Shown here piece by piece: positions 15,620 through 30,696 of a DNA stretch of 64,000 bases. The translations under genes were made by a program, and so were the position numbers. Source of the stretch: Nocardia elegans NBRC 108235 (GTDB lineage Bacteria; Actinomycetota; Actinomycetes; Mycobacteriales; Mycobacteriaceae). The stretch is taken from contig NZ_BDBF01000020.1 in assembly GCF_001612845.1 (NCBI RefSeq), positions 1 through 64,000 of the forward strand. The letters are read 5' to 3'. Each line of letters opens with the position of its first letter. Position 1 is the first letter of the stretch. Under the pieces are notes generated by a model. It was not told the origin of the DNA, made no database searches, and worked only from the letters and a program-made list of their open reading frames with translations.

Positions 15620-16993
15620 ATGACGGACACGCGCGAATCTCATCTCAGCCAGTCCGACCTGTTCTCGTGGAGTATGGAGCGCGACGCGATCCTGCGCTCG
15701 ACGATCGTCTCGGTCGTGATGCTCGACGCGGAGCCGGACTGGGAACGCCTGGTGCAGGCCATCGATCGCGGCACCCGGGTGGCCCCCCGCTTCCGGGATC
15801 GGCTGGTCGCCCTGCCTGCCGGTCTCGCGCCACCACGCTGGGAAGCCGACCCCGATTTCGACCTGTCCTGGCATATGCGGCGGGTCGCCCTGCCGGCCGC
15901 GGTCGACCGCACGGCGGTATTCGAATTCGCCCGCGTCGAGGCCATGACGGCCTTCGACCCGGTCCGCCCGCTGTGGCAGGTGACCGTGCTCGGCGATGTG
16001 ACCGGTGGCGGCAGCGCGCTGGTGCTCAAGGTGCATCACTGCCTGACCGACGGATTGGGCGGCATCCAATTGGCCAACGAGATCGTCGATTTCACCCGGG
16101 CCGGCGGCGAACCTCGTCCGGATCCCCAGCCGGCCCCGGAGAGCCGCGGTGGGCTGGCCGACATCGTCGGATGGAATTGGGCGGTGGGGTCAGAGTTGCT
16201 GCGCGGCGGTCTCGCGCATGTGCTGCCGCTGGCCCGGCATGCCCTCACTCACCCGCTGGGCACCGTGCGCGACGGGGTGGGGCTGGCCGTCTCGATCGGC
16301 AAGCTGGCGCGACCGGTGGTCGACACCCTCTCCCCCGTGATGACGAAACGTGGTCTGTCACGGCACCTTTCGACTCTCGACGTTCCACTCGAACCGCTGC
16401 GCCGCGCCGCGCACACGGTCGGCTGCACCCTCAACGACGCCTTCCTGGCAGGCGTGGTCATCGGGCTGCACCGCTATCACGAACTGCACGAAACGGAGGT
16501 CGAGCGACTGCGGGTCACCATGCCGGTCAGCGTGCGCAAGGACACCGATCCGATCGGCGGAAATCGCATCACCCTGGTGAGATTCGCGCTGCCGGCCGGC
16601 ATCACCGACCCGGCCTCCCTGATGCCCGTGCTCGACGCGATGGTCGTCGGCTGGCGGCACGAACCGGCGATCCCCTATTCGGCCGCCGTCGCCGCCACGC
16701 TCAACCGGCTACCGGTCGCCATCGTCACCGCGATGCTCAAGCACGTGGATTTCGTCGCCTCGGACGTCCCCGGCTCCCCCGTGCCGATCTACATCGCCGG
16801 CGCCGCCGTCGAGCGGATGTACGCCTTCGGCCCCACCATCGGCACGGCGTTCAACGTCACGCTCATCTCCCATACCGATACCTGCTGCGTGGGCATCAAC
16901 GCCGATACGGCCGCGGTACCGGACGTGGAAACCTTCACCGACTGCCTAGCCGAAGGCTTCCACGCCGTCCTCGAACTCGGTGAAACTAGTTGA
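15620..16993 (+). CDS. wax ester synthase/diacylglycerol acyltransferase (WS/DGAT)
   Basis: 457-residue acyl-CoA-dependent acyltransferase that makes triacylglycerol or wax ester storage lipid, typical of mycolata. The catalytic HHxxxDG motif is HHCLTDG at residues 139-145, and the C-terminal domain has the family blocks SDVPGSPVPIYIAG and AFNVTLISHTDTCCVGINAD. The last 8 bases overlap the duplicated ccsB tail that forms the left junction of the mobile element, so before integration this gene and ccsB converged directly. Confidence 0.92.
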   Translation: MTDTRESHLSQSDLFSWSMERDAILRSTIVSVVMLDAEPDWERLVQAIDRGTRVAPRFRDRLVALPAGLAPPRWEADPDFDLSWHMRRVALPAAVDRTAVFEFARVEAMTAFDPVRPLWQVTVLGDVTGGGSALVLKVHHCLTDGLGGIQLANEIVDFTRAGGEPRPDPQPAPESRGGLADIVGWNWAVGSELLRGGLAHVLPLARHALTHPLGTVRDGVGLAVSIGKLARPVVDTLSPVMTKRGLSRHLSTLDVPLEPLRRAAHTVGCTLNDAFLAGVVIGLHRYHELHETEVERLRVTMPVSVRKDTDPIGGNRITLVRFALPAGITDPASLMPVLDAMVVGWRHEPAIPYSAAVAATLNRLPVAIVTAMLKHVDFVASDVPGSPVPIYIAGAAVERMYAFGPTIGTAFNVTLISHTDTCCVGINADTAAVPDVETFTDCLAEGFHAVLELGETS

Positions 16994-17039
16994 GTCCCGC
17001 GTACGAGTGCAACCCGCTCACCACGATGTTGATGATGAA
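16986..17039 (-). mobile_element. attL: duplicated 3' end of ccsB at the left junction
   Basis: Read on the minus strand, these 54 bases encode FIINIVVSGLHSYAGLN and a TAG stop, identical in protein to the end of ccsB at 29702-29755. The two copies share a perfect 23-base core (17017-17039 here). Outside the core they differ at seven bases, all synonymous, including TAG versus TAA. Identity ends abruptly after 17039. This is the chromosomal ccsB tail displaced by integration of the element, or its equivalent. Confidence 0.9.
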
Positions 17040-17506
17040 GACTGTTCTTGGCATTTGCATTGGTGGGCTGGCAATGGCTCCGTGGGCCTGACCTGGCTAT
17101 TTGGATTCGCAACGTTGGCTCAGTATGGCACCGCTGAGCCGCGTTGCGTACTCACTGCGTACCGAGCATGAGGGAGCGCACTACCTCTTCATTACGAGTC
17201 GAATGCGTTGTGTCCGCTCTGGTCTCGCGGACGTCCGTAGGCCTACGCAAGCTGCCGAAACGGTTCCGCGGAAGTCTCAGTGTGTCCGAGGTGGTCTGCA
17301 GGCCATGTGACACGTGCGTGACAACTTCCACGAGTACAGCTGCACCACGTCTGCTGTCCGAGCCTCTCATTACGAGGGTCCGGACGGGACGCTGACCAGG
17401 TGAGACAACGGGTGACTGTCGTCTGTAGGTGGCGGTGGTGACGGCTCCGAAGTCGTCGCTGTTGTCGTCGGGGCTGTCGTCATCGTTCGAAGGCGGGCAG
17501 CGCCTC
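17040..17506. other. left arm of the element, no gene; carries an integrase arm-type repeat
   Basis: No convincing coding region. Positions 17145-17166 hold a 22-base sequence (TGCGTACTCAC then TGCGTACCGAG, an imperfect 11-base tandem) that occurs again, in the same orientation, at 29621-29642. TCATTACGAG occurs twice in this stretch. Composition is lower in GC than the chromosome. This arm probably becomes one side of attP in the circular form. Confidence 0.6.
17145..17166 (+). promoter_or_regulatory. integrase arm-type site, left copy
   Basis: TGCGTACTCAC followed directly by TGCGTACCGAG; an exact copy is at 29621-29642 near the right junction. Paired 11-base direct repeats on both sides of the crossover core are what tyrosine integrases use as arm-binding sites. 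The binding is inferred. Confidence 0.55.
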
Positions 17507-17665
17507 GATGACCGATTTCCCGTCATCTACTGCAGAATCCGCCGACACGGTAACGGAAGACGTGGGGCCGATCGATGCCTCGATGTACTTGCTCGACAAC
17601 AAGACAGAGGAAGTCAGTCATTGGTTGACATGTCAGAAGCAGAAGAGCGGCAAATCCGCGAGTAT
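17507..17665 (+). CDS. possible 52-aa protein overlapping the next gene
   Basis: An open frame starting ATG at 17507 reads MTDFPSSTAESADTVTEDVG and ends SGKSASM; its last 36 bases overlap the start of the 305-residue gene in another frame. The acidic, Ser/Thr-rich composition looks like an N-terminal extension, so it may be a coupled leader protein, the true N-terminus before a frameshift, or chance. No family recognised. Confidence 0.3.
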
Positions 17666-18547
17666 GTGAACAGCCAGTCTCGTGATGATGAGGCAGAACT
17701 GGTGCAGAAGATTGGGTCTCGGCGGATGCTGGGTCGCGTCCATGACATTTATGATGTACATTGCAAAAATTCACGTTGGTGGGTAATAACAGATCCGACG
17801 AATTTATACTCTCAAGAAGATTTTCCACAGGCCGAGCAAGCGTTAATTTTTCATCTCGGCCTCGGCCTTTTCTTGACAGAGCGCTCGCGTGCCGAAATGG
17901 ACGAAAACGAGGAGGAGCACGTCTCACCCTCGTGGCGTCGTTTTCGGCAGGCATTGGAAACAATGGATACAGCTTCCGAATCGGAAGACTTCCAGTCGGT
18001 AGGAATAAAATGCAGAGATGCGTTGATATCGCTGGCGAAGTCTAATATGGATGCCGACTGGGTTGGCGATATCGAGAACCCCCCAAAGGCCGCTGATTTC
18101 AAGGGGTGGGCAGACATATTCGCAGAACGCTTGACCACCGAGCGGCGGGTTAGGGCGTACGTGAAAGCGTTGGTTGAAAAGACTTGGGACCTCACTGTCT
18201 GGCTTCAGCACTACAGCAATGCCACCCCAAGAGATGCCGATCTCGTGCTTAATGCAACTTCGCATCTAATAGGCACCTTTGGAACTCTAATACATCGTCT
18301 CACCGTCGGCGAACCTGAGCGGTGTCCTCGATGTGAGTCATATCGTATCGAGGATGACCTTGTAACTGATATGGAAAAAGGCGGCTTCTTCGAGGCTTCT
18401 GTATGTGCGATGTGCGGTTGGCGATCGGAGGAAGTCTTTGTTTCCTTTGACGACCACTTCGAAGGTGCCGACATAGAGGGCTATCTTTCGGGGCCCGGAA
18501 TGGGTGTGTCGGATCGCCTTAACAGGAAAAGAACCCAAGACGGGTAG
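17630..18547 (+). CDS. cargo protein with C-terminal zinc ribbon, unknown function
   Basis: 305-residue protein, noticeably lower in GC than all neighbours and using A/T-ending codons freely, which points to recent transfer. The middle has a conserved-looking helical block GIKCRDALISLA...KGWADIFAE...WDLTVWLQHYSNATPRDADLVLNAT. The end has a four-cysteine zinc ribbon, CPRC and CAMC about 24 residues apart. I associate the middle block with an uncharacterised family seen in accessory regions, but cannot name it. The start is the ATG at 17630 (MSEAEERQIREYV). A defence or regulatory role is only a guess. Confidence 0.65.
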   Translation: MSEAEERQIREYVNSQSRDDEAELVQKIGSRRMLGRVHDIYDVHCKNSRWWVITDPTNLYSQEDFPQAEQALIFHLGLGLFLTERSRAEMDENEEEHVSPSWRRFRQALETMDTASESEDFQSVGIKCRDALISLAKSNMDADWVGDIENPPKAADFKGWADIFAERLTTERRVRAYVKALVEKTWDLTVWLQHYSNATPRDADLVLNATSHLIGTFGTLIHRLTVGEPERCPRCESYRIEDDLVTDMEKGGFFEASVCAMCGWRSEEVFVSFDDHFEGADIEGYLSGPGMGVSDRLNRKRTQDG

Positions 18548-18559
18548 TGGCCTCCACAC

Positions 18560-18602
18560 TGGGAGCGGAGGGTCGCAGGTTCAAATCCTGTCATCCCGAC
18601 CA
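18560..18602 (+). mobile_element. 3' half of tRNA-Pro(UGG), probable fossil att site
   Basis: From the anticodon TGG (18560-18562) to CCA (18600-18602) the sequence matches an actinobacterial tRNA-Pro: variable region GGGTCG, T-arm GCAGGTTCAAATCCTGT, acceptor CATCCCGA then CCA. The 5' half is missing, because the upstream bases do not form the D-arm or the 5' acceptor strand. A tRNA 3' segment of this kind is the usual AICE attachment sequence; pSAM2 itself uses a tRNA-Pro gene. Confidence 0.75.
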
Positions 18603-18991
18603 TCGGATCAGGGCATAGCCCCTGGTCAGCTCGGTATCCGTGTGCGTCGTCGCGTCGGGCTGATGTCCGAATTTCACTGCTGCTGACCGCCGTTCGCCTA
18701 CAGCTGTTGCACGTAGATTGCACGGCAGGTATGGCGCTTCCAGCGGATAGGGTGTCTATCCGCCCCTGACTACTTTCCCCCGGCCTTCCTCATACATGCC
18801 GCCCTCAGCGGAAGGCAGCCGGGTCAAGGGCGCTCTTTCCCTTGACGCGGTTGGCTGGAGCGAGACAATCCGGCTATGAGGAGGCAGGGGGACTCCCGGC
18901 GTGATCCACTTCGGGTCCGCGGGGGTTCGTCGTTTCTGGAGTTCGGGCGTGTCAAGACTCGTCCACGTGAGGAGCGATACGCTGGCTCCAG
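18603..18991. other. gene-free stretch between the tRNA-Pro fragment and the coiled-coil gene
   Basis: No open frame with credible codon use and no recognised family. TTGCACG recurs as TTGCACGTAGATTGCACGG near 18707-18725. I see no terminator or operator that can be supported. Confidence 0.4.
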
Positions 18992-19453
18992 CTAGATGTC
19001 AGCAACGGCGATCTTGATGCGGTCGATGATGGCTCGCAGCGCGAGAATCTTCTCATCCTGATCCTTTACGCGGGCGTTGAGTCGGTCGATCGTTTCGCGT
19101 AAGGAGCGCAGCTCTTGTTCCTTTGTGACTGCAGCTCCGAGGAGGACCAAGCCAACAAGATTTGCGGGAGAGGCTGACTCCGGAGGCCCAACCAGAGCCT
19201 TCTCGAGCCAACTTCCAAGTGGAGTGTCGGGCCGGTAGACCACGGTCCACATGTGCTGTTCTGGGGCGCAGCCGGCGATGGGCACCTTCAAGCCGAGTCC
19301 CTTGAGTTTCGTCCGGATTTCGGCAACCGTTGTCGGGCCCAGCCGCCAGGCATAGACGTAATCGCGGAGTTCGCCCCAGTTGATGGGCACGGCCCCCCCG
19401 GCCATATCGACTTTCTCGGCCAGTTGTTCAAATTTTCCGTCGATCTCGGGCAT
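18992..19453 (-). CDS. uncharacterised protein with C-terminal coiled coil
   Basis: 153-residue protein. The N-terminal half (NWGELRDYVYAWRLGPTTVAEIRTKLKGLGLKVP) looks like a small alpha/beta domain; the C-terminal third, KEQELRSLRETIDRLNARVKDQDEKILALRAIIDRI, is a clear heptad-patterned coiled coil. The ATG at 19453 has GAGGACGG just upstream; a longer frame exists but adds a low-quality N-terminus. It is the only gene facing left in the cargo zone. No homologue recognised. Confidence 0.6.
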   Translation of the reverse strand: MPEIDGKFEQLAEKVDMAGGAVPINWGELRDYVYAWRLGPTTVAEIRTKLKGLGLKVPIAGCAPEQHMWTVVYRPDTPLGSWLEKALVGPPESASPANLVGLVLLGAAVTKEQELRSLRETIDRLNARVKDQDEKILALRAIIDRIKIAVADI

Positions 19454-19911
19454 TGACCGTCCTCTATTGACCGTGCAACAAGCGTCTGATCGCATCATCC
19501 CATGATCTTGGTTTGGGTCCCGGCGGATCTCTGGTCGTAAGGTTTGGCGCGAGCAGGTCTGTATGGGGTGACCCACAGCCGGTTGCCTGGGCTGGGTACC
19601 GGCGGATTCGGCCTTGGCTGCGGGAGGTCAAGTCGGGGACGGCAGGCGTCGCGCCCAGCACTGCCTCGTTGATGAAAGTGGTCAGATAGGAATGGCCGGC
19701 GTTCTACCACGTCGCCAGAGCGGCGCCGACGCGCCCGACGCGCCCGCTTGCCGCAGCTTGCGTAGGCGGGCGGTTGCGCGGCGCCGCGTGGCGGCGCCGC
19801 TAGGCGGCGCGAAGCGCCGCCCTTGATCCTCTATAGCCAAATTCGGCAACGACCCATGCAGGTGAGTGCATTTGCTCGCCGAAACAGCCTGTGCGCGGAC
19901 AGACTTGGAGC
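19454..19911. other. gene-free region ending in a GC-rich hairpin cluster
   Basis: No credible gene. Between about 19720 and 19821 the sequence becomes almost pure G+C with many nested inverted repeats: GCCCGC pairing with GCGGGC around 19743-19770, GGCGCC palindromes near 19780-19798, and a perfect hairpin at 19803-19821. Such structure is expected of a transfer locus (clt), a replication origin or a strong terminator. Nothing here decides between them. Confidence 0.45.
19803..19821. repeat. perfect 8-bp GC hairpin with GAA loop
   Basis: GGCGGCGC-GAA-GCGCCGCC. Stable triloop hairpin at the right end of the GC-rich cluster, 91 bp before the methyltransferase start. Confidence 0.7.
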
Positions 19912-20748
19912 ATGGCTGAGCTTGCGCTGACGGCGGACCGTCGTGAAGAACTGGCCGGGTTGTTGGGCGACGAAGAACGGTTGCGGGCCGAGTATCCGAA
20001 GGTGGCGGAATACCTCGACACCGCGCCGATGCTGCCAGGGACGGGCGACGAACGGGCCGACGCCGCGTTCGATTTGCGGCTCGTGCACTACATGACGGGC
20101 GGGCCGTCGACTAGCGCTAATCCCTACTGGGACATCGTCGGGCCATCGGTATCCGAACGTGACGGGCGCCGGGTCGTCGATGGTGGCCGGCCCCAAGGAA
20201 GCGCGCGGCTGGGATTCGCGCAGACCATCTTGCAGGCCGCCTACGCCTACGCGATTCCGTCGCCGGAGACCGTGGCTTGGATGCATCAATTCTGCAATGG
20301 GCGTTCGGTGGTCGAGCTCGGAGCTGGCCGCGGCTACTGGGCTGCGCAGTTGGCGAGCGCAGGTTTGGATGTTGCGGCGTATGACTCGGAGCCGCCGGAC
20401 CGGTCCGAGAACCCGTCGTTCACTCGGGCCGAAGGCCAAGCGGATGTCTGGTCGAGCGTTGGTGATCTCGGGCAGTTCGCTGCGCGGTCAGTCGGCAGTG
20501 CCGATGAGGTTCTGTTCCTGTGTTGGCCTCCCGGTTGGGGCAACACGATGGCATCGGACGCGCTGGCCGCCTTCGAGGCGAACGGCGGTCGCCGGTTGGT
20601 CTACATCGGTGAGCCGAAGGGCGGAAAGACGGGCGATGACGCCTTTTTCGATGCGCTGGACTCGCGATGGAAGATCGAATCAGAGGATTCGAAATTCGTC
20701 TCTTGGTGGAATCTCGCGGATCGAGCTCAGGGCTGGGTCCGTCAATAA
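19912..20748 (+). CDS. class I SAM-dependent methyltransferase-like cargo protein
   Basis: 278-residue protein. SAM-binding motif I is SVVELGAGRGYWAAQLASAG near residues 132-151, followed by motif II AYDSEPPDRSENPS and motif-IV-like EVLFLCWPPGW. The N-terminal 120 residues are helical and may bind substrate. No DNA-methylase NPPY or PCQ motif is present; CWPPGW could play the NPPY role, but that is speculative. The ATG at 19912 (MAELALTADRREEL) is the likeliest start. It ends at a strong hairpin shared with the GntR gene. Confidence 0.7.
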   Translation: MAELALTADRREELAGLLGDEERLRAEYPKVAEYLDTAPMLPGTGDERADAAFDLRLVHYMTGGPSTSANPYWDIVGPSVSERDGRRVVDGGRPQGSARLGFAQTILQAAYAYAIPSPETVAWMHQFCNGRSVVELGAGRGYWAAQLASAGLDVAAYDSEPPDRSENPSFTRAEGQADVWSSVGDLGQFAARSVGSADEVLFLCWPPGWGNTMASDALAAFEANGGRRLVYIGEPKGGKTGDDAFFDALDSRWKIESEDSKFVSWWNLADRAQGWVRQ

Positions 20749-20752
20749 AAGA

Positions 20753-20786
20753 ACCGCCGGTCATCCATAGTCGGATGACCGGCGGT
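20753..20786. terminator. bidirectional terminator, 14-bp stem
   Basis: ACCGCCGGTCATCC, 6-base loop, GGATGACCGGCGGT: a perfect 14-bp stem between the convergent methyltransferase and GntR genes. AAAA precedes it on the plus strand. Confidence 0.85.
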
Positions 20787-20797
20787 CGCGCAGAGCT

Positions 20798-21490
20798 CTA
20801 GTTCTCGGTAGCCGATTCCAATTCCGGTTTCAAATTCATGCGGAAAACAAACGCGTAATAGCGATCCCTTGGATAAGACACATCCGAGACCATAATTACT
20901 CGGCCTGTCGCGGTGATGTAGCGCTGGTGGACGGTCTTCACAAGGTCACCGGGGGTGGTCTTCAACCACTCCGCGTGTGACGGTACCGGGATGCTGTCTG
21001 CGACTGTTTCCTCGAGTGTGGCAGCGTCGGAGGTGTCCGCTACGTCGACGGGCTGGTAGCTGTCGGACACGGAGATAGGCCGGCCGTCTTCGCTGGCGCG
21101 AGTGACGACGTGGGTGATCTCTTCGCCGACTGCTACGCCGAGAGCATCGGCCAATGCTTCTGTGGCCTGGACCTTCTCCGTTGTCCGGTCGATCTGGACC
21201 GTACTCTCGGACTCGTTCGCGAACGTCACTTCGGGGTCCTCCATCTGCCGCTCGGGCGAGATACGGATCAGGTTCGGTCGGTCCGACACGAACACGCCGC
21301 GCCTGCGTACAGACCGAACAAGTCCTTGCCCCTGAAGCAGCTCAAGCGCCTTCCTGACGACGATGTCGGAGACGTTGTTGCGGGCGGCGATTTCCGAATA
21401 GCTCGGCAGCTGAGTTCCGGGCGGCAATTCTCCGCCGCGAATTCGGCGAGCATATTCGCCTGCGATGGAAACGTAGGCTGGTTCCGCCAT
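20798..21490 (-). CDS. GntR-family (HutC-type) transcriptional repressor of the element
   Basis: 230-residue regulator with an N-terminal GntR winged helix (AYVSIAGEYARRIRGGELPPG, SYSEIAARNNVSDIVVRKALELLQGQGLV) and a UTRA-type effector domain from about residue 85. In AICEs such as pSAM2 the equivalent protein (KorSA) represses transfer and replication genes. The ATG at 21490 is chosen because GAAGGG lies 9 bases before it, while it abuts the alternative ATG at 21499. A CGTATACG palindrome lies 65 bp upstream, and five more lie in the control region of the transfer operon, so this is probably their repressor (inference). Confidence 0.85.
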   Translation of the reverse strand: MAEPAYVSIAGEYARRIRGGELPPGTQLPSYSEIAARNNVSDIVVRKALELLQGQGLVRSVRRRGVFVSDRPNLIRISPERQMEDPEVTFANESESTVQIDRTTEKVQATEALADALGVAVGEEITHVVTRASEDGRPISVSDSYQPVDVADTSDAATLEETVADSIPVPSHAEWLKTTPGDLVKTVHQRYITATGRVIMVSDVSYPRDRYYAFVFRMNLKPELESATEN

Positions 21491-21554
21491 GAGGCTCATC
21501 CCTTCAATTCGAAAATCATTAGCGAGTCGAACTCGGAGCTAGTGTAGCGCACTT

Positions 21555-21562
21555 CGTATACG
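21555..21562. promoter_or_regulatory. CGTATACG operator upstream of the GntR gene
   Basis: Perfect 8-bp palindrome 65 bases upstream of the GntR start, identical to five copies at 22153-22268. GTATAC fits the short palindromes bound by HutC-type GntR proteins. Autoregulation is inferred. Confidence 0.6.
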
Positions 21563-21598
21563 CAATTGGATGGATAGGCGGCTTATCGCGAGAGATAT

Positions 21599-21760
21599 TC
21601 ATGCATTCGAATCTGTATCCGAATTGACAACCTCCGGCTCAGCTCGGTCCATTAAGCGATCAGAGGGACGACGCTCCGGCCAGTACGCAACCAGGCAATA
21701 CACCCCCACCGACAGCGGCAGGATTACAAGAAGCAGTCCGAGGGCTTCCCAGGTGCTCAC
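21599..21760 (-). CDS. small single-pass membrane protein of the element
   Basis: 53-residue protein starting at GTG 21760 (MSTWEALGLLLVILPLSVGVYCLVAYWPERRPSD in two parts: a membrane helix, then the charged tail). The start overlaps the upstream stop codon (GTGA), giving translational coupling. AYWP at the end of the helix is shared with the membrane protein at 12696-12929. Possibly a Spd-type spread protein, but no family is recognised. Confidence 0.6.
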   Translation of the reverse strand: MSTWEALGLLLVILPLSVGVYCLVAYWPERRPSDRLMDRAEPEVVNSDTDSNA

Positions 21761-22065
21761 CGCCGCCCCCCGCCCTGCTGCATCGGCCACCTCGCGAACG
21801 ACAGCCGAGGTAAGACGGCCTCGACATCAGCCAGATCCATGAGGCTGTTCAGGGTGAGCGGGTCCAGATGGTTCGCCGAAGGGACGATCACCGCGTCGAC
21901 ATCGGCCGTGCGAACTTGATCCGGTAAGGGCAGCAACGAACTCGCTGGCCAGATGAGGGCATAGCCGAGATGCCTCGCCAGGCGCTGCACCTGGGCGCGA
22001 TCCCAGTCCGGCGCGACGGTCACATCGGGGTCGATCCACGCGAGAGCCGTAGGGCGGAATCTCAT
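21757..22065 (-). CDS. uncharacterised 102-aa protein, paralogue of 12182-12487
   Basis: 102-residue protein: MRFRPTALAWIDPDV, ARHLGYALIWP, TADVDAVIVPSANHLD, LADVEAVLPRLSFARW. More than half of the positions match the chromosomal 101-residue gene at 12182, in the same order. The ATG at 22065 has AAGGTG 7 bases upstream; the longer frame would cross two of the CGTATACG sites. It is coupled to the following membrane protein and divergent from the transfer operon, so both are under the operator cluster. Confidence 0.65.
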   Translation of the reverse strand: MRFRPTALAWIDPDVTVAPDWDRAQVQRLARHLGYALIWPASSLLPLPDQVRTADVDAVIVPSANHLDPLTLNSLMDLADVEAVLPRLSFARWPMQQGGGRR

Positions 22066-22152
22066 TGCGCACACCTTCTTGTCCCATGATGCCGCGTGTC
22101 GATGGATCAGCAAGTCCTCAACCAGCGGCAATAGCGTCCTTACATCGCTCAG

Positions 22153-22268
22153 CGTATACGAAGATACGTATACGGACAAGAGGGTTTCGGCGCGCTGACC
22201 AGCGGGTTTGATCTTTCTCGCCCTTCGTATACGCAAATTCCTTGTGCGTATACGCAGCTACGTATACG
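22153..22268. promoter_or_regulatory. cluster of five CGTATACG operators controlling the transfer operon
   Basis: Perfect palindromes at 22153-22160, 22167-22174, 22226-22233, 22247-22254 and 22261-22268, in the 270-bp gap between divergent genes. Centre-to-centre spacings are 14, 59, 21 and 14 bp. A sixth copy is in front of the GntR gene. I saw none elsewhere in the window. Likely operator array for the GntR repressor, controlling both directions. Confidence 0.7.
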
Positions 22269-22335
22269 ATGAGCTCGTCGCCGCTACCAAACGCGGCGAG
22301 AGTCGAAATACCCCCAGACGCAAGGAGATCCAGTC

Positions 22336-22788
22336 ATGGCACTCAAAGATCTGCGCTTCAACGTCGCGTTCAACGAAGCGTTCGAGAAGGGCCTCGTGCT
22401 GGTCGGCGAGATCGAGCCGGACACCGAGTACAACCAGAACCGCAACGCTCCGGCTCGTCAGAAGGTCGACCCGGTGACCGGTCTGCGGCAGTGGAAGGCC
22501 ACCGCGACCAATCCGGCCGAGACGAACCCGAAGAAGTCCAGCATTCAGGTGATCTTCCTGGCGGACGTGGCCCCGGTGCCCTCGACTCCCGAGGTGCTGC
22601 CCGGTATGCGCTCGATCGTGCTGGAGAACGTGACTCTTCAGCCGAAGGTGACGGGTCAGGGCGAGTTCAAGACCCTGGGTTGGACGGTGCGGGCTACCGG
22701 TATCGCGGGTGACAACTCCGGCGCCAAGGTTCCCGCGGCTGATCCGGGTGCGGCTCGTCCGGCGCGTGGCGACGCGAAGGCTGCGTGA
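22336..22788 (+). CDS. AICE conserved protein at the head of the transfer operon
   Basis: 150-residue protein: MALKDLRFNVAFNEAFEKGL, then a beta-rich core (SIQVIFLADVAPVPSTPEVLPGMRSIVLENVTLQPKVTG) and an Ala/Pro-rich tail. Proteins of this type occupy the first position in the transfer operons of many actinomycete elements; I cannot name a function. AAGGAGATC precedes the ATG. It is the first gene after the five CGTATACG sites, and its stop overlaps the next start. Confidence 0.7.
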   Translation: MALKDLRFNVAFNEAFEKGLVLVGEIEPDTEYNQNRNAPARQKVDPVTGLRQWKATATNPAETNPKKSSIQVIFLADVAPVPSTPEVLPGMRSIVLENVTLQPKVTGQGEFKTLGWTVRATGIAGDNSGAKVPAADPGAARPARGDAKAA

Positions 22789-23036
22789 CCGCCATGTCGT
22801 TCATCAGCGCACACATCAGCAAGTTCGATGGCATCGAGGCCGAGTACTGCCCGGCCCGCGACACTGCATCGGGGCCGATCCCGGCCGCAGTGGGCGTGGA
22901 GATGAACCACGAGGCCATCGGGTCCGCCCTGCTGTATCTGTCGATCGAGGATGCTCGCACCCTGGCTGAGCAGCTGCCGCAGATCCTGATGATGCACGAT
23001 GTGGCGGAGCGTCTGGCGGCGGAGAAGGCTGCCTGA
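22785..23036 (+). CDS. small AICE protein, unknown function
   Basis: 83-residue protein, MTAMSFISAHISKFDGIEAEYCPARD..., with a helical C-terminus LYLSIEDARTLAEQLPQILMMHDVAERLAAEKAA. The GTG at 22785 overlaps the preceding stop (GTGA) and has GAAGG 5 bases upstream; an internal ATG at 22794 is possible. Its stop overlaps the next gene by TGATG. The family is not recognised. Confidence 0.6.
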   Translation: MTAMSFISAHISKFDGIEAEYCPARDTASGPIPAAVGVEMNHEAIGSALLYLSIEDARTLAEQLPQILMMHDVAERLAAEKAA

Positions 23037-23644
23037 TGTTCACGCCTGAGCGGGGAATGCGTGCGGCGCGGGTGTTCGCGGTCCTGGTGATCGTGGGCGT
23101 CGGCGCCGCCGCCTTCCGGCTGTCGTTCGCCACGCTGCGGGATCTGGCCAAGCTGGCGCATATTCCGGCGTCGGATGCGTGGCTGTTCCCGCTGATCATC
23201 GACGGCACGATCGTTCAGGCCACCGCCAGCGCTTTGGTCCTCGCCAAGTCCGCAGAACGGAAGTTCTTCACCTGGGTTCTGGTGGTCGGGGCGCTGGTGT
23301 CGGTGGCGGGCAACAGCATCCACGCCGTAGCGGCGGGCAAAGAGCTACCGGCGTGGCTGTGCGCGATCGTGGCGGCCATCGCCCCGGTATCGCTGCTCGT
23401 GGATACCCACGGCCTGGCGGTGCTGTTCCGTGCCGCACAAGATAGCCCGGCTCCGGTCGCTACTCCGGCGACGGCTGTGGCCGCTGAGGACACCGCGCCG
23501 ACTTTCGATGAGTTTGAGGAACTTACGGCCCCCGAACCGCCTACCCCGGCGGTGCCCGCTCCGCCAGCGGCGGCACAACCGATTCCTGTTTCTCGACCCG
23601 TGCAGCCTCCGTTGCTGCCGGTCTCTGTCCCGATCGGGAGCTGA
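23036..23644 (+). CDS. DUF2637 membrane protein (SpdB-like plasmid spread protein)
   Basis: 202-residue protein. Four hydrophobic segments lie in the first 135 residues (VFAVLVIVGVGAAAF, AWLFPLIIDGTIVQATASAL, FFTWVLVVGALVSVAGN, LCAIVAAIAPVSLLVDTHGLAVLF), then a long Pro/Ala-rich tail. The DWLFPLxxDG-like core places it in DUF2637, found next to the translocase gene in mycelial plasmids and linked to intramycelial spread. Its start overlaps the upstream stop (TGATG). Confidence 0.85.
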   Translation: MFTPERGMRAARVFAVLVIVGVGAAAFRLSFATLRDLAKLAHIPASDAWLFPLIIDGTIVQATASALVLAKSAERKFFTWVLVVGALVSVAGNSIHAVAAGKELPAWLCAIVAAIAPVSLLVDTHGLAVLFRAAQDSPAPVATPATAVAAEDTAPTFDEFEELTAPEPPTPAVPAPPAAAQPIPVSRPVQPPLLPVSVPIGS

Positions 23645-23650
23645 TCTGTG

Positions 23651-23944
23651 ATGGAAACAAGTCTGAATAATGCTGCGGCCGTGGGTGCTACGGCTCTGGC
23701 TGTCACCGCCGTCGCTCTGGGTGTCGCCGGTGTTTTGGCGTTCGGTCCGCGTCACGAAGTGGCCGCTGTCGAGCACGCCACCGCCAAACCGGGGTGCGTC
23801 ATGTTCTGCGACGAACACATACCCGCCGCCCCGGATTCTCACGGCTGCACCATGTTCTGCCACGAACCGGGATTGCCCCCGGCCGATGTGCAGGGCTGCC
23901 AGCTGTTGTGCGGGCTCGACGACTCGAAGGAGCCCTGGCAATGA
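23651..23944 (+). CDS. membrane-anchored protein with three GC-x3-C repeats
   Basis: 97-residue protein. An N-terminal membrane segment (AAVGATALAVTAVALGVAGVLAF) is followed by three spaced copies of a small Cys motif: GCVMFCDEH, GCTMFCHEP and GCQLLCGLD, each with two cysteines separated by three residues. Two copies carry a nearby His. Six cysteines in an otherwise Cys-poor element suggest metal binding or disulfides outside the membrane (inference). An alternative GTG at 23648 adds one residue. Its stop overlaps the translocase start (ATGA). No family recognised. Confidence 0.65.
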   Translation: METSLNNAAAVGATALAVTAVALGVAGVLAFGPRHEVAAVEHATAKPGCVMFCDEHIPAAPDSHGCTMFCHEPGLPPADVQGCQLLCGLDDSKEPWQ

Positions 23945-25278
23945 CCGTCGTCGACATGGTCCCGATCGCGGCCTCAGCTATCGGCGCGCTCGTCTTCGCG
24001 GCACACATCCTGCCGTGGGGCCGCCGCCCCGCCACCACCACCGCCGCGAGCCTGGAACGCGAATTGGCCGAGGCCCCGGAGATTCTTCGCCCGGCCATCC
24101 TGTCGTTCGCTTCACCCGTGCACTCGCAGTTGATGTTTTCGCTGCTCAAGCTCGGTTCGCCTGAGACCGGGTTCCCGCGTGTGGAGTGGTGGGACTACTC
24201 CCGCCACGGCCTGACCGTCGACCTGCTGATGCGCGGTGGGCAAACCTTGGCCGACTGGACCAAGGACGACATGCGATCTCGCATCGCCGATCACGTCGGC
24301 GTCGAACAGGTCACCGCGTCCTCTCCTGCTCCGGGCTGGGTGCGGCTGGAACTGCGAGTGCACGACACCCTGGCCGAATCGGTCACCACCGACACCCCCG
24401 ACACCGTGGCTGCCGGTGTGGACCTGGAAGCGGTGCGGGTTGGTGTGCGTGAGGACGGGGCACCGTGGCTGCTGCGAATCCTGTACTCGCACATCCTTCT
24501 TGCCGGTGCCACCGGTTCGGGTAAGGGCTCGGTGTTGTGGTCGATCCTGGCCGGCCTCGGCCCCGCGATCAAAGCCAAGCTGGTCGATGTTCGCATGGCC
24601 GACCCGAAGGGTGGTGCCGAGTTCGGGCGCGGTGAGAACCGGCTGTTCACCCGGTTTGCCACCACGGCCGACTCCATCCTCGGCATGTTGACCGAAGCCC
24701 GCGACGAGATGGACGAACGGCTGGCCCGGATGCGGGCGGCTGGGGTGCGCAAGCTGGTGCCCAGCATCGATGAGCCACTGATCCTGATCATCATCGACGA
24801 AGCGGCGTCGCTGTCGTCGTATGCCGACCGCACCGAGCAGGAAGAGTTCCGGAAGCTGACCGGGCTGTTGCTGTCCAAAGGCCGTGCCGCCGGTGTGTCG
24901 GTCATCGCCGCGTTGCAGGACCCGTCCAAGGAGACGATGCCCAACCGGCAACTGTTCCCGGTCCGCGTCGGTCTCCGGTTGGACGAGCCGACCCAGACGG
25001 CGATGGTCCACGGGCAAGGTGCCAGGGACCGGGGCGCGTACTGCGACCGCATCCCCGAGACCACGCCCGGTGTCGGCTACGTCGGCGAAGACGGCACCAC
25101 CGAATTCGTTCGCGTGCGGGCGTTCTGGATCGACGACGACCAGGCCGACGCTCTGGTGAACCTGTATTCCCCGGCTCCCGTGATCACCGGACCGACCGAG
25201 GACTACACCGGGTTCGACCCTGACGACCTGGGCGACGACATCCCTGGTGACGGCTACACGGGGCCGGTGGCGGCATGA
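23941..25278 (+). CDS. FtsK/SpoIIIE-type conjugal DNA translocase (TraSA-like)
   Basis: 445-residue hexameric ATPase that pumps double-stranded plasmid DNA between cells in AICE conjugation. One N-terminal hydrophobic stretch is followed by the motor domain: Walker A GATGSGKGS near residue 189, Walker B LILIIIDEAAS near residue 280. The C-terminal end is acidic (DDLGDDIPGD). It is shorter than full TraB proteins; a plausible missing membrane part is encoded separately at 25892-26566. The start overlaps the upstream stop and its stop overlaps the next start. Confidence 0.92.
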   Translation: MTVVDMVPIAASAIGALVFAAHILPWGRRPATTTAASLERELAEAPEILRPAILSFASPVHSQLMFSLLKLGSPETGFPRVEWWDYSRHGLTVDLLMRGGQTLADWTKDDMRSRIADHVGVEQVTASSPAPGWVRLELRVHDTLAESVTTDTPDTVAAGVDLEAVRVGVREDGAPWLLRILYSHILLAGATGSGKGSVLWSILAGLGPAIKAKLVDVRMADPKGGAEFGRGENRLFTRFATTADSILGMLTEARDEMDERLARMRAAGVRKLVPSIDEPLILIIIDEAASLSSYADRTEQEEFRKLTGLLLSKGRAAGVSVIAALQDPSKETMPNRQLFPVRVGLRLDEPTQTAMVHGQGARDRGAYCDRIPETTPGVGYVGEDGTTEFVRVRAFWIDDDQADALVNLYSPAPVITGPTEDYTGFDPDDLGDDIPGDGYTGPVAA

Positions 25279-25565
25279 AACGCGGACTCGTCACCGAAAA
25301 CCACGTGGTCATCTACTGCGACGGCTGCGGCGACCTCTACACCGACGCTCGCGGAGATGCGGTGTGCTTCACCTCGACCCACCAGGCCGCCTACTACCTC
25401 GCCGGCGGCCGTAACGGCTGGCTCTACGACGGTGACCGCATCACCTGCGACGGCTGCGCGATCACCGCCGAATGCGACTTGCGCGGCCACCACTTCCCCT
25501 CCACGAACAACGCTCTTCGCCGCTGCGACCGCTGCGGTGCACCCGCTGACAAACAGGAGAACTGA
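25275..25565 (+). CDS. small multi-zinc-ribbon protein of the element
   Basis: 96-residue protein with four Cys pairs or near-pairs: YCDGCG at residues 14-18, TCDGCA around 57-61, ECDL nearby and RCDRCG at 83-87. The first and second CDGC knuckles share spacing, suggesting two zinc ribbons. The start overlaps the translocase stop (ATGA). It may bind DNA or the translocase; no name can be given. Confidence 0.65.
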   Translation: MKRGLVTENHVVIYCDGCGDLYTDARGDAVCFTSTHQAAYYLAGGRNGWLYDGDRITCDGCAITAECDLRGHHFPSTNNALRRCDRCGAPADKQEN

Positions 25566-25566
25566 A

Positions 25567-25740
25567 ATGAGCAAGCACACAAGCGAATACGCCGACGTGA
25601 TCGACCTGCACAGCCGTCGTCGCTGCCAGCTCGAAGCCCGAGGACTGGACCCGATCGGTATCGCGGTCAACATCCTCGCCGAAACCGGCACCGTGTTCGG
25701 CCACGGCTACGACCCCGACGGAGGGGACTGGGCCGCATGA
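25567..25740 (+). CDS. 57-aa protein of the transfer operon
   Basis: Short protein MSKHTSEYADVIDLHSRRRC, continuing QLEARGLDPIGIAVNILAE and ending GGDWAA. CAGGAGA upstream supports the ATG. Its stop overlaps the next start (ATGA). Helical and charged; unknown function, but its position in a chain of coupled genes makes it credible. Confidence 0.55.
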   Translation: MSKHTSEYADVIDLHSRRRCQLEARGLDPIGIAVNILAETGTVFGHGYDPDGGDWAA

Positions 25741-25895
25741 GTATCAAACATGTTGCGCCGCATGTGAACCCGATCGTGCAGACGGCAGCGGACCGGGTGC
25801 GGAAGTCCAAGCGGCGCAAGGTCAAGAACCTCCCCGCCAACCGGAAGCCCAACAGACAACCGGGGCTGTTCGACGAATCCGAGGTAAAGCAGTGA
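25737..25895 (+). CDS. 52-aa basic protein of the transfer operon
   Basis: Reads MSIKHVAPHVNPIVQTAADR, then a strongly basic stretch (VRKSKRRKVKNLPANRKPNR) and an acidic end (LFDESEVKQ). It overlaps the stop codon before it (ATGA) and the start codon after it (GTGA). The basic patch suggests nucleic-acid contact (inference). Confidence 0.55.
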   Translation: MSIKHVAPHVNPIVQTAADRVRKSKRRKVKNLPANRKPNRQPGLFDESEVKQ

Positions 25896-26566
25896 GCACC
25901 ATAACCAAAACCACCACCACTGTCCGGACCCGCCGCGACCCTCTAGAGAACATCGTGACCCTGGTCCTAGCCGCGATCGGCTGGGTAGTGATCTCGGTGT
26001 TCCTCGCGGCCTGGTGGGCGCTTCTGTTTCCGATGATCTCGCTACCGATCGCCGCGATAGCCAGCCTTTTCTGGTTCTACGGATGGCTGCCCGCCTTCGG
26101 CATGACACTCGCCTCGATCGCTGCGCTGGCGCTGTGGCGTGTGAAGGGGCCGGAATCGTTTTCTCGCTGGATCTCCTGTCGTGCCCGGTCGCGGTTCCTG
26201 CGTTGGTGGCGCTACCGGCGGCAGTGGTCGGCCTGCCTGGACGACTGCCATCTATCGGTGCGCGACGACCTGGGCCACGTGGTGCGGACTCCGCGGCTGA
26301 TCCATGTCGAGATCGGCCAGGCCACCGACACCGTGCAGGTCGCGATGGTCCGAGGGCAATGCCCCGACGACTGGACCAACCGCACCACCCATCTCGCCCA
26401 CGCCTTCGGCGCCAGAGAATGCCGCGCCACCGTCACCGGCCCCGGTCGTATGCAGCTGATGTTCCGGCACGGCGATTCCCTCGCCAAACCGGTCACCACC
26501 ACGTTCCCGCACATCCCTGGCGGACTGGGCGGACCGCCCCTCGAGCGGGGAGACGACGCCGCGTGA
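25892..26566 (+). CDS. membrane protein resembling the N-terminal part of FtsK/TraB translocases
   Basis: 224-residue protein with three or four membrane segments in residues 20-90 (IVTLVLAAIGWVVISVFLAAWW, MISLPIAAIASLFWFYGWLP, FGMTLASIAALALWRV) and a soluble part with VAMVRGQCPDDWTNRTTHLAHAFGARECRATV. The latter block, with GQ-PDDW and LAHAF, is the form seen just before the motor domain in many actinomycete translocases. As the motor gene at 23941 lacks these parts, the two may form a split translocase (inference). GTG start overlaps the upstream stop. Confidence 0.65.
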   Translation: MSTITKTTTTVRTRRDPLENIVTLVLAAIGWVVISVFLAAWWALLFPMISLPIAAIASLFWFYGWLPAFGMTLASIAALALWRVKGPESFSRWISCRARSRFLRWWRYRRQWSACLDDCHLSVRDDLGHVVRTPRLIHVEIGQATDTVQVAMVRGQCPDDWTNRTTHLAHAFGARECRATVTGPGRMQLMFRHGDSLAKPVTTTFPHIPGGLGGPPLERGDDAA

Positions 26567-26598
26567 CGACCGACAAAGACTGTGCGGGAGGCCCGAGC

Positions 26599-28266
26599 AT
26601 GACAGACACCACGACTGCCGCCGATCCGGCCTCCCTCGGGCCGGTCCGGGAAACCGCGGCTGATCGGCGTTCGATGCCGAACCTGTACGACATCGCGCAA
26701 GCGGCGGCCGACAAGCATGGGGAATGCCGCCGACCGATCCCGATGTACTCGTTCGATCCCGACACCGGGGAATCGAAATACGTTGGCGCACCCTGCAAAT
26801 CAACCCTCGAAAGCGTGTGCCCCTCGTGCGCTGCTCGGGCTCGTGCTTTGCGGATGCAGCAGGCCCACGAAGGCTGGCACATCGAACACGAACCCGTCGA
26901 CGACAAGCGCGAACCCACCGACCAGCAACGCGAACTGGTGGAGACCCGCGCCCGGTTGATGGACGACTACCAGCACGCCAAGGCCCATGACGATCACGAC
27001 CAGATGGCCGGCATCCGGGAGATCGTGGCGGAGCTGGATGCGGAGTTGCGGGAGACCGGTGTACGCGGTCGTTTTCCGGCGCTGGACCCTGCACCGAAAT
27101 CGGAGCGCAAACGGTCGACCCGCCGCCGCCAAGATGTTCCCGACCTGCCCCGCAAGAAGATCGACAAAACCACGATCGGACGTCAGTACGCGGGCAAGTA
27201 TCGGCCCTCGACGTTCGCCACGGTCACCTGCGACTCTTACGGGCGGGTCAATCCAGACGGTTCGCCGGTCAACCCGGACGCCTACGACTACCGGCGCGCT
27301 GCGCGTGACATCGTGTTCTGGCCCGCGCTGTTCGACCGGTTCGTCCAGAACTACCGGCGCGCAACCGGCCGCGATATTCAGTACTTCGCCACCGTCGAAC
27401 CGCAACGCCGAGGCGCCCCGCACATTCACATGGCCATCCGCGGCACCGACCCGAAGGCACTTATTCGGCAAATCGTGGCCGCGACCTATCACCAGGTGTG
27501 GTGGCCGCACTTCGACCCGGAAAACGAGCAGTACACAGACGGGCACATGCCGGTCTGGGACTACACCGCCGGTCGATTCGTCGACCCCGACACTGCCGAA
27601 CCACTGCCCAACTGGGACGAAGCGATGGACATGCTCGACACCATCGACGACCTCGAACCCGCGCACGTGGTCAAGTTCGGCCGCCAAGTCGACGTGCAAG
27701 GCGTGCTCGGCGGCACCGAGGAAGCCTCCCGCCACGTCGGCTACCTGACCAAATACCTCACCAAGTCCATCGCTGAGGTCATCGAGGCCCAAACCAACCG
27801 CGCGGCAGAGCATTACGACCGGCTACACGCCGAACTCCAAAAGGTTCCCTGCTCGCCGAACTGCCCGATCTGGCTGCGCTACGGCATCGCTCCCAAAGGC
27901 GCCAGCGACAAGACACAACCAGGCCGCTGCAAGGGCAAAGCCCACCGCCGCGAAACGCTCGGCCTGCGCGGCCGGCGCGTCCTGGTCTCGCGACGCTGGA
28001 CCGGCAAGACCCTCCCGGACCACAAGGCCGACCGCGCCGAATTCGTTCGGCAAATTCTCGCCTCGGTCGGCATCCAAAAACCCGACACATCCCGGCTGAT
28101 CGTCAAGCCGGTCGAACCCGGAGACAAGAACGTGCCACCGCGAGAGCACCTGATCATGGCCTCGATCGCGCAGCGGATCAAATGGCGCGCCCAATACGAA
28201 ACCGCCCGCCTGGAAGCCAATCCACCAGGCCAACAAGGACATTCGGTAATTCAACCGGCGGCATAG
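26599..28266 (+). CDS. RepSA-like HUH replication initiator
   Basis: 555-residue rolling-circle-type initiator. A Cys knuckle near residues 63-79 (CKSTLESVCPSCAARA) precedes the core. The HUH metal motif is PHIHMAIRG near residue 274 and the tyrosine region is YLTKYLTKSI near residue 381. A later CSPNCPIWLRYG...CKGKAHRRETLG block and GLRGRRVLVSRRWTGKTL match actinomycete Rep proteins of the pSAM2 RepSA type. It nicks at the double-strand origin to replicate the excised circle. The start is the ATG at 26599, 7 bases after GGGAGG; a GTG at 26563 overlapping the upstream stop is an alternative. Confidence 0.9.
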   Translation: MTDTTTAADPASLGPVRETAADRRSMPNLYDIAQAAADKHGECRRPIPMYSFDPDTGESKYVGAPCKSTLESVCPSCAARARALRMQQAHEGWHIEHEPVDDKREPTDQQRELVETRARLMDDYQHAKAHDDHDQMAGIREIVAELDAELRETGVRGRFPALDPAPKSERKRSTRRRQDVPDLPRKKIDKTTIGRQYAGKYRPSTFATVTCDSYGRVNPDGSPVNPDAYDYRRAARDIVFWPALFDRFVQNYRRATGRDIQYFATVEPQRRGAPHIHMAIRGTDPKALIRQIVAATYHQVWWPHFDPENEQYTDGHMPVWDYTAGRFVDPDTAEPLPNWDEAMDMLDTIDDLEPAHVVKFGRQVDVQGVLGGTEEASRHVGYLTKYLTKSIAEVIEAQTNRAAEHYDRLHAELQKVPCSPNCPIWLRYGIAPKGASDKTQPGRCKGKAHRRETLGLRGRRVLVSRRWTGKTLPDHKADRAEFVRQILASVGIQKPDTSRLIVKPVEPGDKNVPPREHLIMASIAQRIKWRAQYETARLEANPPGQQGHSVIQPAA

Positions 28267-28278
28267 GAAGGGATACAG

Positions 28279-28488
28279 ATGGACATCAGTGATCAGGAAA
28301 CGTATCTGCGCGCCAAGGATTGCGAACGGTTGACCGGGATTCCGGAGGCCACCTGGCGATGGTGGGCGCACGTAGGCAAGGGACCGGCCAGCTTCAAGAT
28401 GGGCGCTCGTCGTCGTGTGTGGCGGAAGTCGGTGATCTTGGCGTGGATCGCGGAGCAGGAGGCAGAAAGCCTGGGTGATGCCGCGTGA
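28279..28488 (+). CDS. xis: excisionase (Xis), MerR-like HTH
   Basis: 69-residue winged-helix protein: YLRAKDCERLTGIPEATWRWWAHVGKGPASFKMGARRRVWRKSVILAWIAEQE in pieces, the standard AlpA/Xis layout. It directs excision by the integrase. Its stop overlaps the GTG start of int (GTGA), so both are made from one message. It follows the rep gene by 12 bp. Confidence 0.88.
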   Translation: MDISDQETYLRAKDCERLTGIPEATWRWWAHVGKGPASFKMGARRRVWRKSVILAWIAEQEAESLGDAA

Positions 28489-29705: not shown

Positions 29706-29755
29706 TTCAGCCCCGCGTAGGAGTGCAGACCACTCACCACGATGTTGATGATGAA
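29702..29755 (-). mobile_element. attR: 3' end of intact ccsB at the right junction
   Basis: The final 17 codons and TAA stop of ccsB, with the 23-base core at 29733-29755. Up to the core the gene is chromosomal; the codons beyond it (29702-29732) come from the element and replace the displaced ones synonymously. Confidence 0.9.
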
Positions 29756-30694
29756 CAAGTTGAACAGCATCGCGACGAAGCCGGCGACGTTGATCCAGGC
29801 GGCCTTGGTTTCGCGCCAGCCGGAGGTCGCGCGGGCGTGCAGGTACGCCGCGTAGATGACCCAGGCGATGAAGGAGACGGTTTCCTTCGGGTCCCAGCCC
29901 CAGAAGCGGCCCCACGCGCTTTCGGCCCAGATGGCGCCGAGGATGATGCCGGTGCCGAAGAGGGGGAAGGCCACGACCGTCGTGCGGTAGGCGAGGCGGT
30001 CGAGGGTGCGGGCGTCGGGGAGGCGGCGGGCGAGGGCGCCGAGCGGGTTGCTCGATTCCTGGCCTTCCGGCTGGTACATGCGCAGCAGGAACAGCAGGCT
30101 CGCCACACCTGAGAGCATGAAGATGCCGCTGCCGATGCTGACGATGGTGACGTGGATCGGCAGCCAGTACGACTTCAGCGCCGGAACCACGGGCGCGGCG
30201 TCGGCGTAGAGCACCTGGCCGGCCAGGAACATCAGGATCAGCACCGGAACCAGCAGGAAGACCCACATCGCGCGGTACCGGCGCTCGTGGATGAACACCA
30301 GGCCGGTGACCATCGCGGCCGCGGTCGCCATGGTGATGAACTCGTACATGTTGCCGAGCGGGAAGCGGTGGGTCGCGAAGCCGCGCAACACGATCGAGGC
30401 CAGGTGCAGCCCGATCGCGACGAAGACGACGGCGAACGCCATATTGCCGAGCTGCTCGGCCAGCGAACGCTTCGGAGCCGGCTCCAGCTTGCCGGGCACG
30501 ACCGGCCGGTCCGCGCTCACTCCGGAGGAGGCGCCGACGCCGACCAGTTCGCGCTCACGCTCCTGGGCGCTGGTCACCTTCTTCTTCGCCGAGGCGTACT
30601 GCACGATCAGCATCGCCAGCACCAGCAGGTAGACGACGAACGCCGTCTTGAAGGCGAGATTGCTGTAACCGGCGAGTGTTTCGTCGATCGGCAT
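29702..30694 (-). CDS. ccsB: c-type cytochrome biogenesis protein CcsB (CcsA/ResC family)
   Basis: 330-residue membrane protein of System II cytochrome c maturation; with ResB it exports heme and attaches it to apocytochromes outside the membrane. Around eight membrane segments, the tryptophan-rich heme-handling motif WGRFWGWDPKETVSFIAW near the C-terminus, and conserved His in HLASIVLRGFATHRFP. The ATG at 30694 sits directly after the resB stop. The last codons are supplied by the integrated element, yet the ending SGLHSYAGLN is unchanged. Confidence 0.93.
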   Translation of the reverse strand: MPIDETLAGYSNLAFKTAFVVYLLVLAMLIVQYASAKKKVTSAQERERELVGVGASSGVSADRPVVPGKLEPAPKRSLAEQLGNMAFAVVFVAIGLHLASIVLRGFATHRFPLGNMYEFITMATAAAMVTGLVFIHERRYRAMWVFLLVPVLILMFLAGQVLYADAAPVVPALKSYWLPIHVTIVSIGSGIFMLSGVASLLFLLRMYQPEGQESSNPLGALARRLPDARTLDRLAYRTTVVAFPLFGTGIILGAIWAESAWGRFWGWDPKETVSFIAWVIYAAYLHARATSGWRETKAAWINVAGFVAMLFNLFIINIVVSGLHSYAGLN

Positions 30695-30696
30695 GT

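Follow-up and report, generated by a model that had tools for sequence, protein, structure and literature searches.

A probable relic half of a tRNA-Pro(UGG) attachment site inside a ccsB-integrated AICE of Nocardia elegans

Within an AICE of Nocardia elegans NBRC 108235 that is now integrated in ccsB lies a short segment, 18560-18724, which very probably represents the right half of an attP (core and P' arm) that survives from an AICE once seated in tRNA-Pro(UGG), the rest of whose integration system was later replaced. The core is identical to the 3' half of the host tRNA gene, and an arm motif follows it at the offset found behind intact tRNA-Pro(UGG) genes in other genomes. The segment has the orientation and order relative to the backbone that are seen in intact tRNA-Pro(UGG) elements, its left arm and cognate integrase are lost, and a ccsB-clade integration module stands on a backbone of other affinity.

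Genomes and searches

The window is the whole stretch of 64,000 nucleotides that was analysed (G000:C20:1-64000); the genome from which it comes, here called G000, belongs to the genus Nocardia and is a draft of 7.54 Mb in 117 contigs. Comparisons were made with 148-150 Nocardia genomes taken from a larger group, and a motif-pattern scan was also run over a second collection of 84,980 species genomes, in which neighbours of the window genome may be missing. The flanks of the relics were divided at the core before BLAST comparison, in which matches shorter than about 20 bases would stay invisible. For the census of cores, flanks were inspected for all 24 matches of the 12 genomes with two matches and for one genome with a single match (G120). 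Covariance scores were read against the Rfam tRNA gathering score of 29 bits, with the score of the relic taken at a relaxed threshold.

The relic core

Positions 18560-18602 of the forward strand match the host's own tRNA-Pro(UGG) gene (G000:C38:60273-60319, reverse strand) at 43 of 43 bases (genome search, E 7.8e-16). The identity runs from the first anticodon base to the CCA, and the base preceding 18560 differs. The runner-up 43-mer anywhere in the window, on either strand, agrees at 25 of 43 positions, so that chance similarity, which the initial annotation had named as evidence against its reading, does not account for the match. The same annotation had placed a 43-base 3' half of tRNA-Pro(UGG) about 1.5 kb inside the left end of an integrated element, and the comparison with the host gene that it proposed agrees with this throughout, the core lying 1.52 kb inside that end. 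Nor is the segment a functional tRNA gene: ARAGORN, which recognised an intact tRNA-Pro(tgg) at the C38 locus, gave no tRNA for the window, and the Rfam tRNA model aligned over 18541-18599 with only 19.5 bits (E 0.2) against the gathering score of 29, with the D-arm positions missing.

The host also has intact tRNA-Pro(GGG) and tRNA-Pro(CGG) genes, each 10-11 kb from its own 3'-half copy with integrase-type genes between, so that ordinary tRNA-integrated elements were available for comparison. These are an element of about 11 kb in tRNA-Pro(GGG) on contig C13 (L034) and one of about 10 kb in tRNA-Pro(CGG) on contig C5 (L035). Elsewhere in the host, an isolated segment at G000:C37:38164-38190 resembles the 3' half of the host tRNA-Met (intact at C52:11290) and is possibly another island end or relic.

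The right arm and intact tRNA-Pro(UGG) elements

The motif GCACGTAGATTGCACG (18709-18724, forward strand), a presumed arm-type site, starts 147 bases after the base that begins GGAGCGG in the core, and 18709 is its only position in the window. It stands at the same offset of 147 behind an intact tRNA-Pro(UGG) gene in Nocardia concava (G042; identical), in N. takedensis (G128; one change) and in a third genome, G057 (two changes). On this ground 18560-18724 is, as far as sequence can tell, the core and right arm of a tRNA-Pro(UGG) attP, with 18603-18724 on the forward strand as the P' arm. Outside the core and motif the arm in the window is 46-52% alike to the three intact ones, so the attP assignment rests on core, motif and spacing, and common descent of the whole right arm would rest on the motif and its position. 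A search pattern made up of the core, 102-114 free bases and the motif was found once each in 6 of 148 Nocardia genomes and never with the reversed control; in three of the six it lies behind an intact tRNA (G042, G057, G128) and in the other three the 5' half of the tRNA is missing (G000, G064, G081). A slightly stricter pattern hit only N. takedensis and N. concava among the 84,980 species genomes, from which records near the window genome were possibly left out.

Between the intact tRNA-Pro(UGG) and a second core copy, these three genomes carry elements of 16.9 kb (G042), 14.3 kb (G057) and 6.1 kb (G128). All three have rep and int, and traB is present in G042 and G057; none was found in the element of about 6 kb in G128. 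Their integrases share 71-83% identity with one another and 21-25% with the ccsB integrase of the window. All three integrases at least 73% identical to that of G042 (itself included) adjoin a tRNA-Pro(UGG) core. Between int and the left core the motif recurs in changed form in G057 and G128 and only in a degenerate form in G042, a placement that fits what is expected of arm-type integrase sites. The order in G042 is tRNA, P', GntR, spdB, traB, rep, int, left arm and core, in the orientation of the window, and G057 and G128 agree in the genes found. Core and P' of the relic are the first two items of the G042 order, in the correct order and orientation, and both conserved non-coding pieces described below follow the equivalent region in G042 in the same order as in the window.

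A reading of the relic as opposite to the canonical orientation was rejected: in elements of the tRNA-Pro(GGG) type int lies beside the intact tRNA, whereas in tRNA-Pro(UGG) elements it lies beside the fragment, and for the latter the orientation in the window is the canonical one. Another candidate arm site right of the core, the CCTGGTCAG motif, was set aside, as it resembles half of the hairpins found behind other Nocardia tRNAs. Within the arm, 31 bases (18622-18652) resemble a conserved gene of several genomes, which we take to be glpX; this resemblance is probably due to chance. Other integrases, closely related to the tRNA-Pro(UGG) integrase at 67-69%, were seen beside the apparent 3' ends of other tRNAs (L179-L182, L184, L186 and L190), and these neighbours suggest that modest change within the tRNA-Pro(UGG) integrase clade accompanies a change of tRNA target.

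The ccsB element as a mosaic

The element that holds the relic is a RepSA/TraB AICE spanning 16987-29755 and seated in the 3' end of ccsB (29702-30811, reverse strand; PF01578, E 1.1e-42), a cytochrome c assembly gene whose name is that of the initial annotation. Its ends are formed by a 53-bp att repeat on the forward strand, the left copy (16987-17039; ccsB 3' end) being the left end of the element and the right copy (29703-29755) lying within the 3' end of ccsB; the two are identical at 47 of 53 positions and are the longest direct repeat within 16500-31000. The target was correctly recognised in the initial annotation: besides the adjoining gene, the site is empty in G005 (L080), where sequences corresponding to 16000-17039 and 29703-31500 of the window are joined through a single repeat copy. 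Inside the ends lie two fully identical 22-bp repeats on the forward strand (17145-17166 and 29621-29642), presumed arm-type repeats of the ccsB integrase; of six other ccsB elements, three (G063, G127 and G011) have a matching pair, one copy at each end.

From the left end, the first gene is a cargo gene on the forward strand (17630-18547; 305 aa from the ATG at 17630, with the mechanical ORF start at 17429), with 12 bases between its stop codon and the relic core. Among 148 genomes it has one homologue (78%), inside a tRNA-Pro(GGG) AICE of G062, and its protein had no match in Pfam or PADLOC. An AlphaFold model of the protein (mean pLDDT 47.5) was too weak for use; CxxC pairs were noted close to its C-terminus. 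The relic core and right arm are followed by a conserved non-coding stretch (18775-18893, forward strand) that occupies the same place in the order of the tRNA-Pro(UGG) AICE of G042 and also occurs in G064, in G005 and in the tRNA-Pro(GGG) AICE of the host. Next is a reverse-strand gene without assigned function (18992-19576), which adjoins the relic in both the window and G005 (86%, with one internal stop there) and has three distant relatives among 148 genomes. It borders a palindrome-rich conserved non-coding stretch (19573-19854, forward strand), common to many of the compared AICEs with differing integrases and perhaps a replication or transfer locus.

Further genes are a GntR/UTRA regulator on the reverse strand (20798-21499; PF00392, PF07702) and, all on the forward strand, a DUF2637 gene (23036-23644; PF10935), presumably SpdB-like, a TraB/FtsK-type transfer gene (23794-25278; PF01580, E 7.8e-14), a RepSA replication initiator (26014-28266; PF20199, E 6.5e-107), an excisionase-like HTH gene, xis (28279-28488; PF12728 at 24.1 bits, under the curated 27, and 80-81% identical to the xis of the ccsB AICEs of G063 and G127), and a tyrosine integrase of the ccsB clade (28485-29705; PF00589, E 1.4e-16). 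With predicted RepSA, an FtsK/SpoIIIE-type transfer protein, integrase and excisionase, and att repeats, the element would be classed as a RepSA-type AICE.

The integration genes and the backbone of this element have different relatives. Eight integrases of 64-85% identity to that of the window were fetched, and all eight abut ccsB, whereas no ccsB was found beside the fetched relatives of at most 63.5% over the main aligned part; a partial match of 65% in G131:C3 stands outside this comparison. Six complete ccsB elements with both att copies were found (G063, G127, G086, G041, G051 and G011). Rep and traB like those of the window turned up only in G063 and G127, and the tRNA-Pro core is present in none of the six. 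Even in these two the integrase is far closer to that of the window (85% and 84% at the amino acid level) than is rep (56% and 53%). The backbone from 19.57 to 28.24 kb, compared by bins, is instead 70-98% identical at the nucleotide level to the host tRNA-Pro(GGG) AICE, where it aligns, and to AICEs of G005 and G123, which lie beside tRNA-Arg or carry 3' copies of it. This similarity ends at 28238-28272 (about 28.25 kb), just behind rep, with no match to the right. The identities of integrase and rep, together with this map, place a ccsB module (xis, int and both ends) on a backbone of other affinity, and by these comparisons the element is a mosaic. The mosaic nature proposed at the outset is supported, with int and att from the ccsB clade and the backbone from tRNA-Arg/tRNA-Pro(GGG) AICEs, and at three other loci the relic likewise has other integrases nearby.

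The missing left arm and integrase

At the relic the left arm is absent: the stop codon of the cargo gene lies 12 bases before the core, and no CTCTGACC-type motif was seen. Six right-end fragments of tRNA-Pro(UGG) elements (in G042, G047, G057, G104, G120 and G128) have CTCTGACC or CCCTGACC some 25-40 bases left of the core, and neither was seen left of the core in the window, G005 or G081. No cognate integrase was found in cis, the sole integrase seen in the element being of the ccsB type. At E<=1e-60 there was no relative of the tRNA-Pro integrase in the host genome, where 12 of 20 candidates were scored, nor in G005 or G064; the relic-bearing G081 has a 68% relative with one internal stop on another contig. 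With no close integrase in its host, the relic is probably inert, and it could still serve as a target for incoming tRNA-Pro(UGG) elements.

Immediately left of the core, likeness to the tRNA stem was found at 6 of 10 bases in three relics and 7 of 10 in G081 (background 0.026 and 0.004). As gapped alignments these likenesses were not significant (P 0.09-0.22; window, P 0.22). Such likeness would be expected at a secondary att site, and in its weakness it neither proves nor excludes a seam cut by the integrase.

Three further relics

The bare core pattern was found in 127 of 148 genomes, in 12 of them twice (139 matches in total; none with the reversed control). The 24 matches in the two-match genomes comprise 15 intact tRNAs, 5 right-end fragments and 4 relics (G000, G005, G064 and G081), while G120, a single-match genome, supplied the sixth right-end fragment. 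All four relics are followed by the right arm or a remnant of it. Two other arrangements were met: a decayed copy of the tRNA-Pro(UGG) core at L054:13803 (G087), 4.2 kb from an intact tRNA-Pro gene, and a tRNA-Gly/tRNA-Pro(UGG) pair present twice in G103:C4 (L039) as an inverted repeat about 6.8 kb apart.

The relic of G005 lies in a tRNA-Arg(ACG) array that includes the intact tRNA (36848) and two 3' copies (15607 and 22099; L029+L030 coordinates). It stands within the first unit of the array, after two HNH genes (Pfam) and before homologues of window 18921-20747; its core has one mismatch, the arm motif is lost, and no int was found in this unit. The HNH genes are at L029:15996-16967 and L029:17149-18123, and the second, nearer the relic, matches PADLOC anti-phage effector models. 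In G064 a 3.4-kb element between a 3' copy of tRNA-Gly(CCC) and the intact tRNA-Gly contains a DUF7691 cargo gene whose end is 20 bases short of the relic; the relic still has its arm motif, and the element further holds backbone pieces and an integrase that shares only 31-33% identity with the tRNA-Pro integrases. The left flank there (CACCTGACCGACCAG) may retain part of the left arm, so that the break in G064 perhaps did not fall at the crossover.

In G081 the relic region borders a chromosomal glycosyltransferase gene that is conserved in relatives to about L048:7630. Beyond it a cargo gene stops ten bases short of the relic, whose core has one T-loop change, and a backbone piece and a serine recombinase come next. 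The present left att region is a degenerate tRNA-Arg-like stretch (28 bases at 82%) with no Rfam tRNA match. In both G081 and G041 a serine recombinase gene (L048:11001-12926; L168) lies near the same glycosyltransferase gene; the two copies are oppositely oriented and 95% identical over 1.3 kb.

The two sides of the four relics behave differently. All six pairs of right flanks have BLAST matches past the core, part of which is a non-coding piece common to many AICEs, whereas the left flanks (1.5 kb each) have no mutual matches except 20 bases between G064 and the window (E 0.004). Between the window and G005, identity rightward of the core is 97% over 127 bp and 92% over a further 1144 bp, G005 having a gap of 234 bp; leftward the two are unrelated. 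At all four loci the start or end of a cargo gene lies some 10-80 bases away from the core.

Origin of the relic

In the history that we favour, the relic would be the left end of the ancestor of the backbone, which would have used tRNA-Pro(UGG), and the segment from the end of rep to the core, with the tRNA-Pro int and the left arm, would have been replaced by the ccsB module and cargo. In the circular form the replaced stretch is continuous: it begins at the end of rep, takes in int, att and the cargo gene, and stops at the relic core. Recombination by the tRNA-Pro integrase at the core may have set the left breakpoint there; one example of a route would be that a cointegrate with another AICE formed at a secondary site and that its duplicated backbones then underwent homologous deletion. 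The meeting of unrelated left and related right parts at the core in all four cases, and the sharing of one block by the window and G005 behind different left parts, suggest a seam cut by the tRNA-Pro integrase. The relic block (18560-18900) may also be a small separate graft, since the nearest relatives of the backbone are tRNA-Arg and tRNA-Pro(GGG) AICEs and not tRNA-Pro(UGG) elements.

Alternatively, a tRNA-Pro(UGG) AICE may have entered a resident ccsB AICE through a secondary site close to the end of the cargo gene and been mostly lost since, the relic being the end of the intruder. This is a serious rival, even if we hold it to be rather unlikely. To the right of the core stands left-end sequence, oriented as an inserted element would have it, the cargo homologue in G062 runs straight into the backbone piece with no relic between, and the six other ccsB elements are without a relic; moreover, PMC3218068 describes AICEs in tandem and one that has two int genes and two att pairs. 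Set against this, the window element has neither a second backbone copy nor a right end (left arm with half core), and two genomes whose left parts differ both have the relic block linked to the genes at 18992-20747. Tandems, which are seen in the tRNA-Arg array of G005 and reported in the same source, also allow the core to be the junction of two islands once stacked in tRNA-Pro(UGG), with the sequence that spans it later taken up by a ccsB AICE. We think this improbable, as the window, G005 and G081 lack, left of the core, the CTCTGACC or CCCTGACC of the six right-end fragments.

There is very little to recommend a decayed tRNA gene carried as cargo. The weak Rfam alignment and some bases left of the anticodon that resemble a 5' stem would fit one, but the identity stops exactly at the anticodon, the D-arm is missing and the offset-147 motif goes with att sites; the failure of ARAGORN to find a tRNA, the score of 19.5 against 29 bits and a left-flank likeness that is not significant as a local alignment (P 0.22) led us to rule out a tRNA gene, functional or decayed. 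Least credible of all is chance or an assembly artefact: although the host genome is a 117-contig draft, core and right flank recur in the independent genome G005 (97% over 127 bases), and the next-best match in the window is the 25 of 43 given above. The initial annotation had left two histories side by side, ancestral use of tRNA-Pro followed by a module swap, and a second element once inserted next to this one. The relic and the mosaicism stood, and the choice between the two leans to descent with the left end of the backbone.

The tRNA-Pro core might further be a working seam of module exchange, at which AICEs trade cargo and integration modules site-specifically at old att cores. We offer this tentatively and think it doubtful at present; if true, old att cores would be mobile docking sites for tRNA-Pro(UGG) elements. 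Because the seam is visible, elements still using the site can be named and the arrangement recurs three times, the route by which an integration target changes becomes testable at the bench.

Comparison with known systems

Discordant trees have led to the inference that AICEs exchange modules, int is the most divergent gene in one Frankia family, and tandem AICEs and tRNA remnants as probable integration sites have also been described (PMC3218068, as far as its available sections go). Integrase exchange in archaeal plasmids has been inferred from phylogeny in the part of PMC6972569 that was accessible. No description of an internal relic att half-site in an AICE was found in the literature searched, which was available in part and had subscription journals mostly outside it. 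AICE mosaicism is thus already known, and the internal relic half-attP with its arm motif and three parallels is the addition made here: the physical seam of a module exchange is visible, half of the old att site is still in place, and the arrangement recurs at three more loci. It also carries a warning that tRNA 3' fragments within islands need not mark island ends.

The window element shares with pSAM2-like RepSA AICEs the RepSA protein, the FtsK-type TraB, the GntR regulator, the tyrosine integrase and an att repeat at the 3' end of a host gene. For pSAM2 itself the target is a tRNA-Pro gene; the window element differs from it in targeting a protein gene, ccsB, and in keeping inside it a second, unserved tRNA-Pro half-site. 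With ICESt1-type accretion and deletion islands it shares composite ends that come from site-specific accretion and deletion, although such islands share one att system and in the window element the systems differ. The tRNA-Pro(UGG) elements of N. concava, N. takedensis and G057 have the same core, arm motif, offset and orientation, but retain the tRNA, the left arm and their own integrase. The Frankia AICE Fcci3390 likewise has two integration systems and, according to the accessible part of its description, keeps two int genes and two att pairs (PMC3218068), whereas in the window element the second system is reduced to half an att site.
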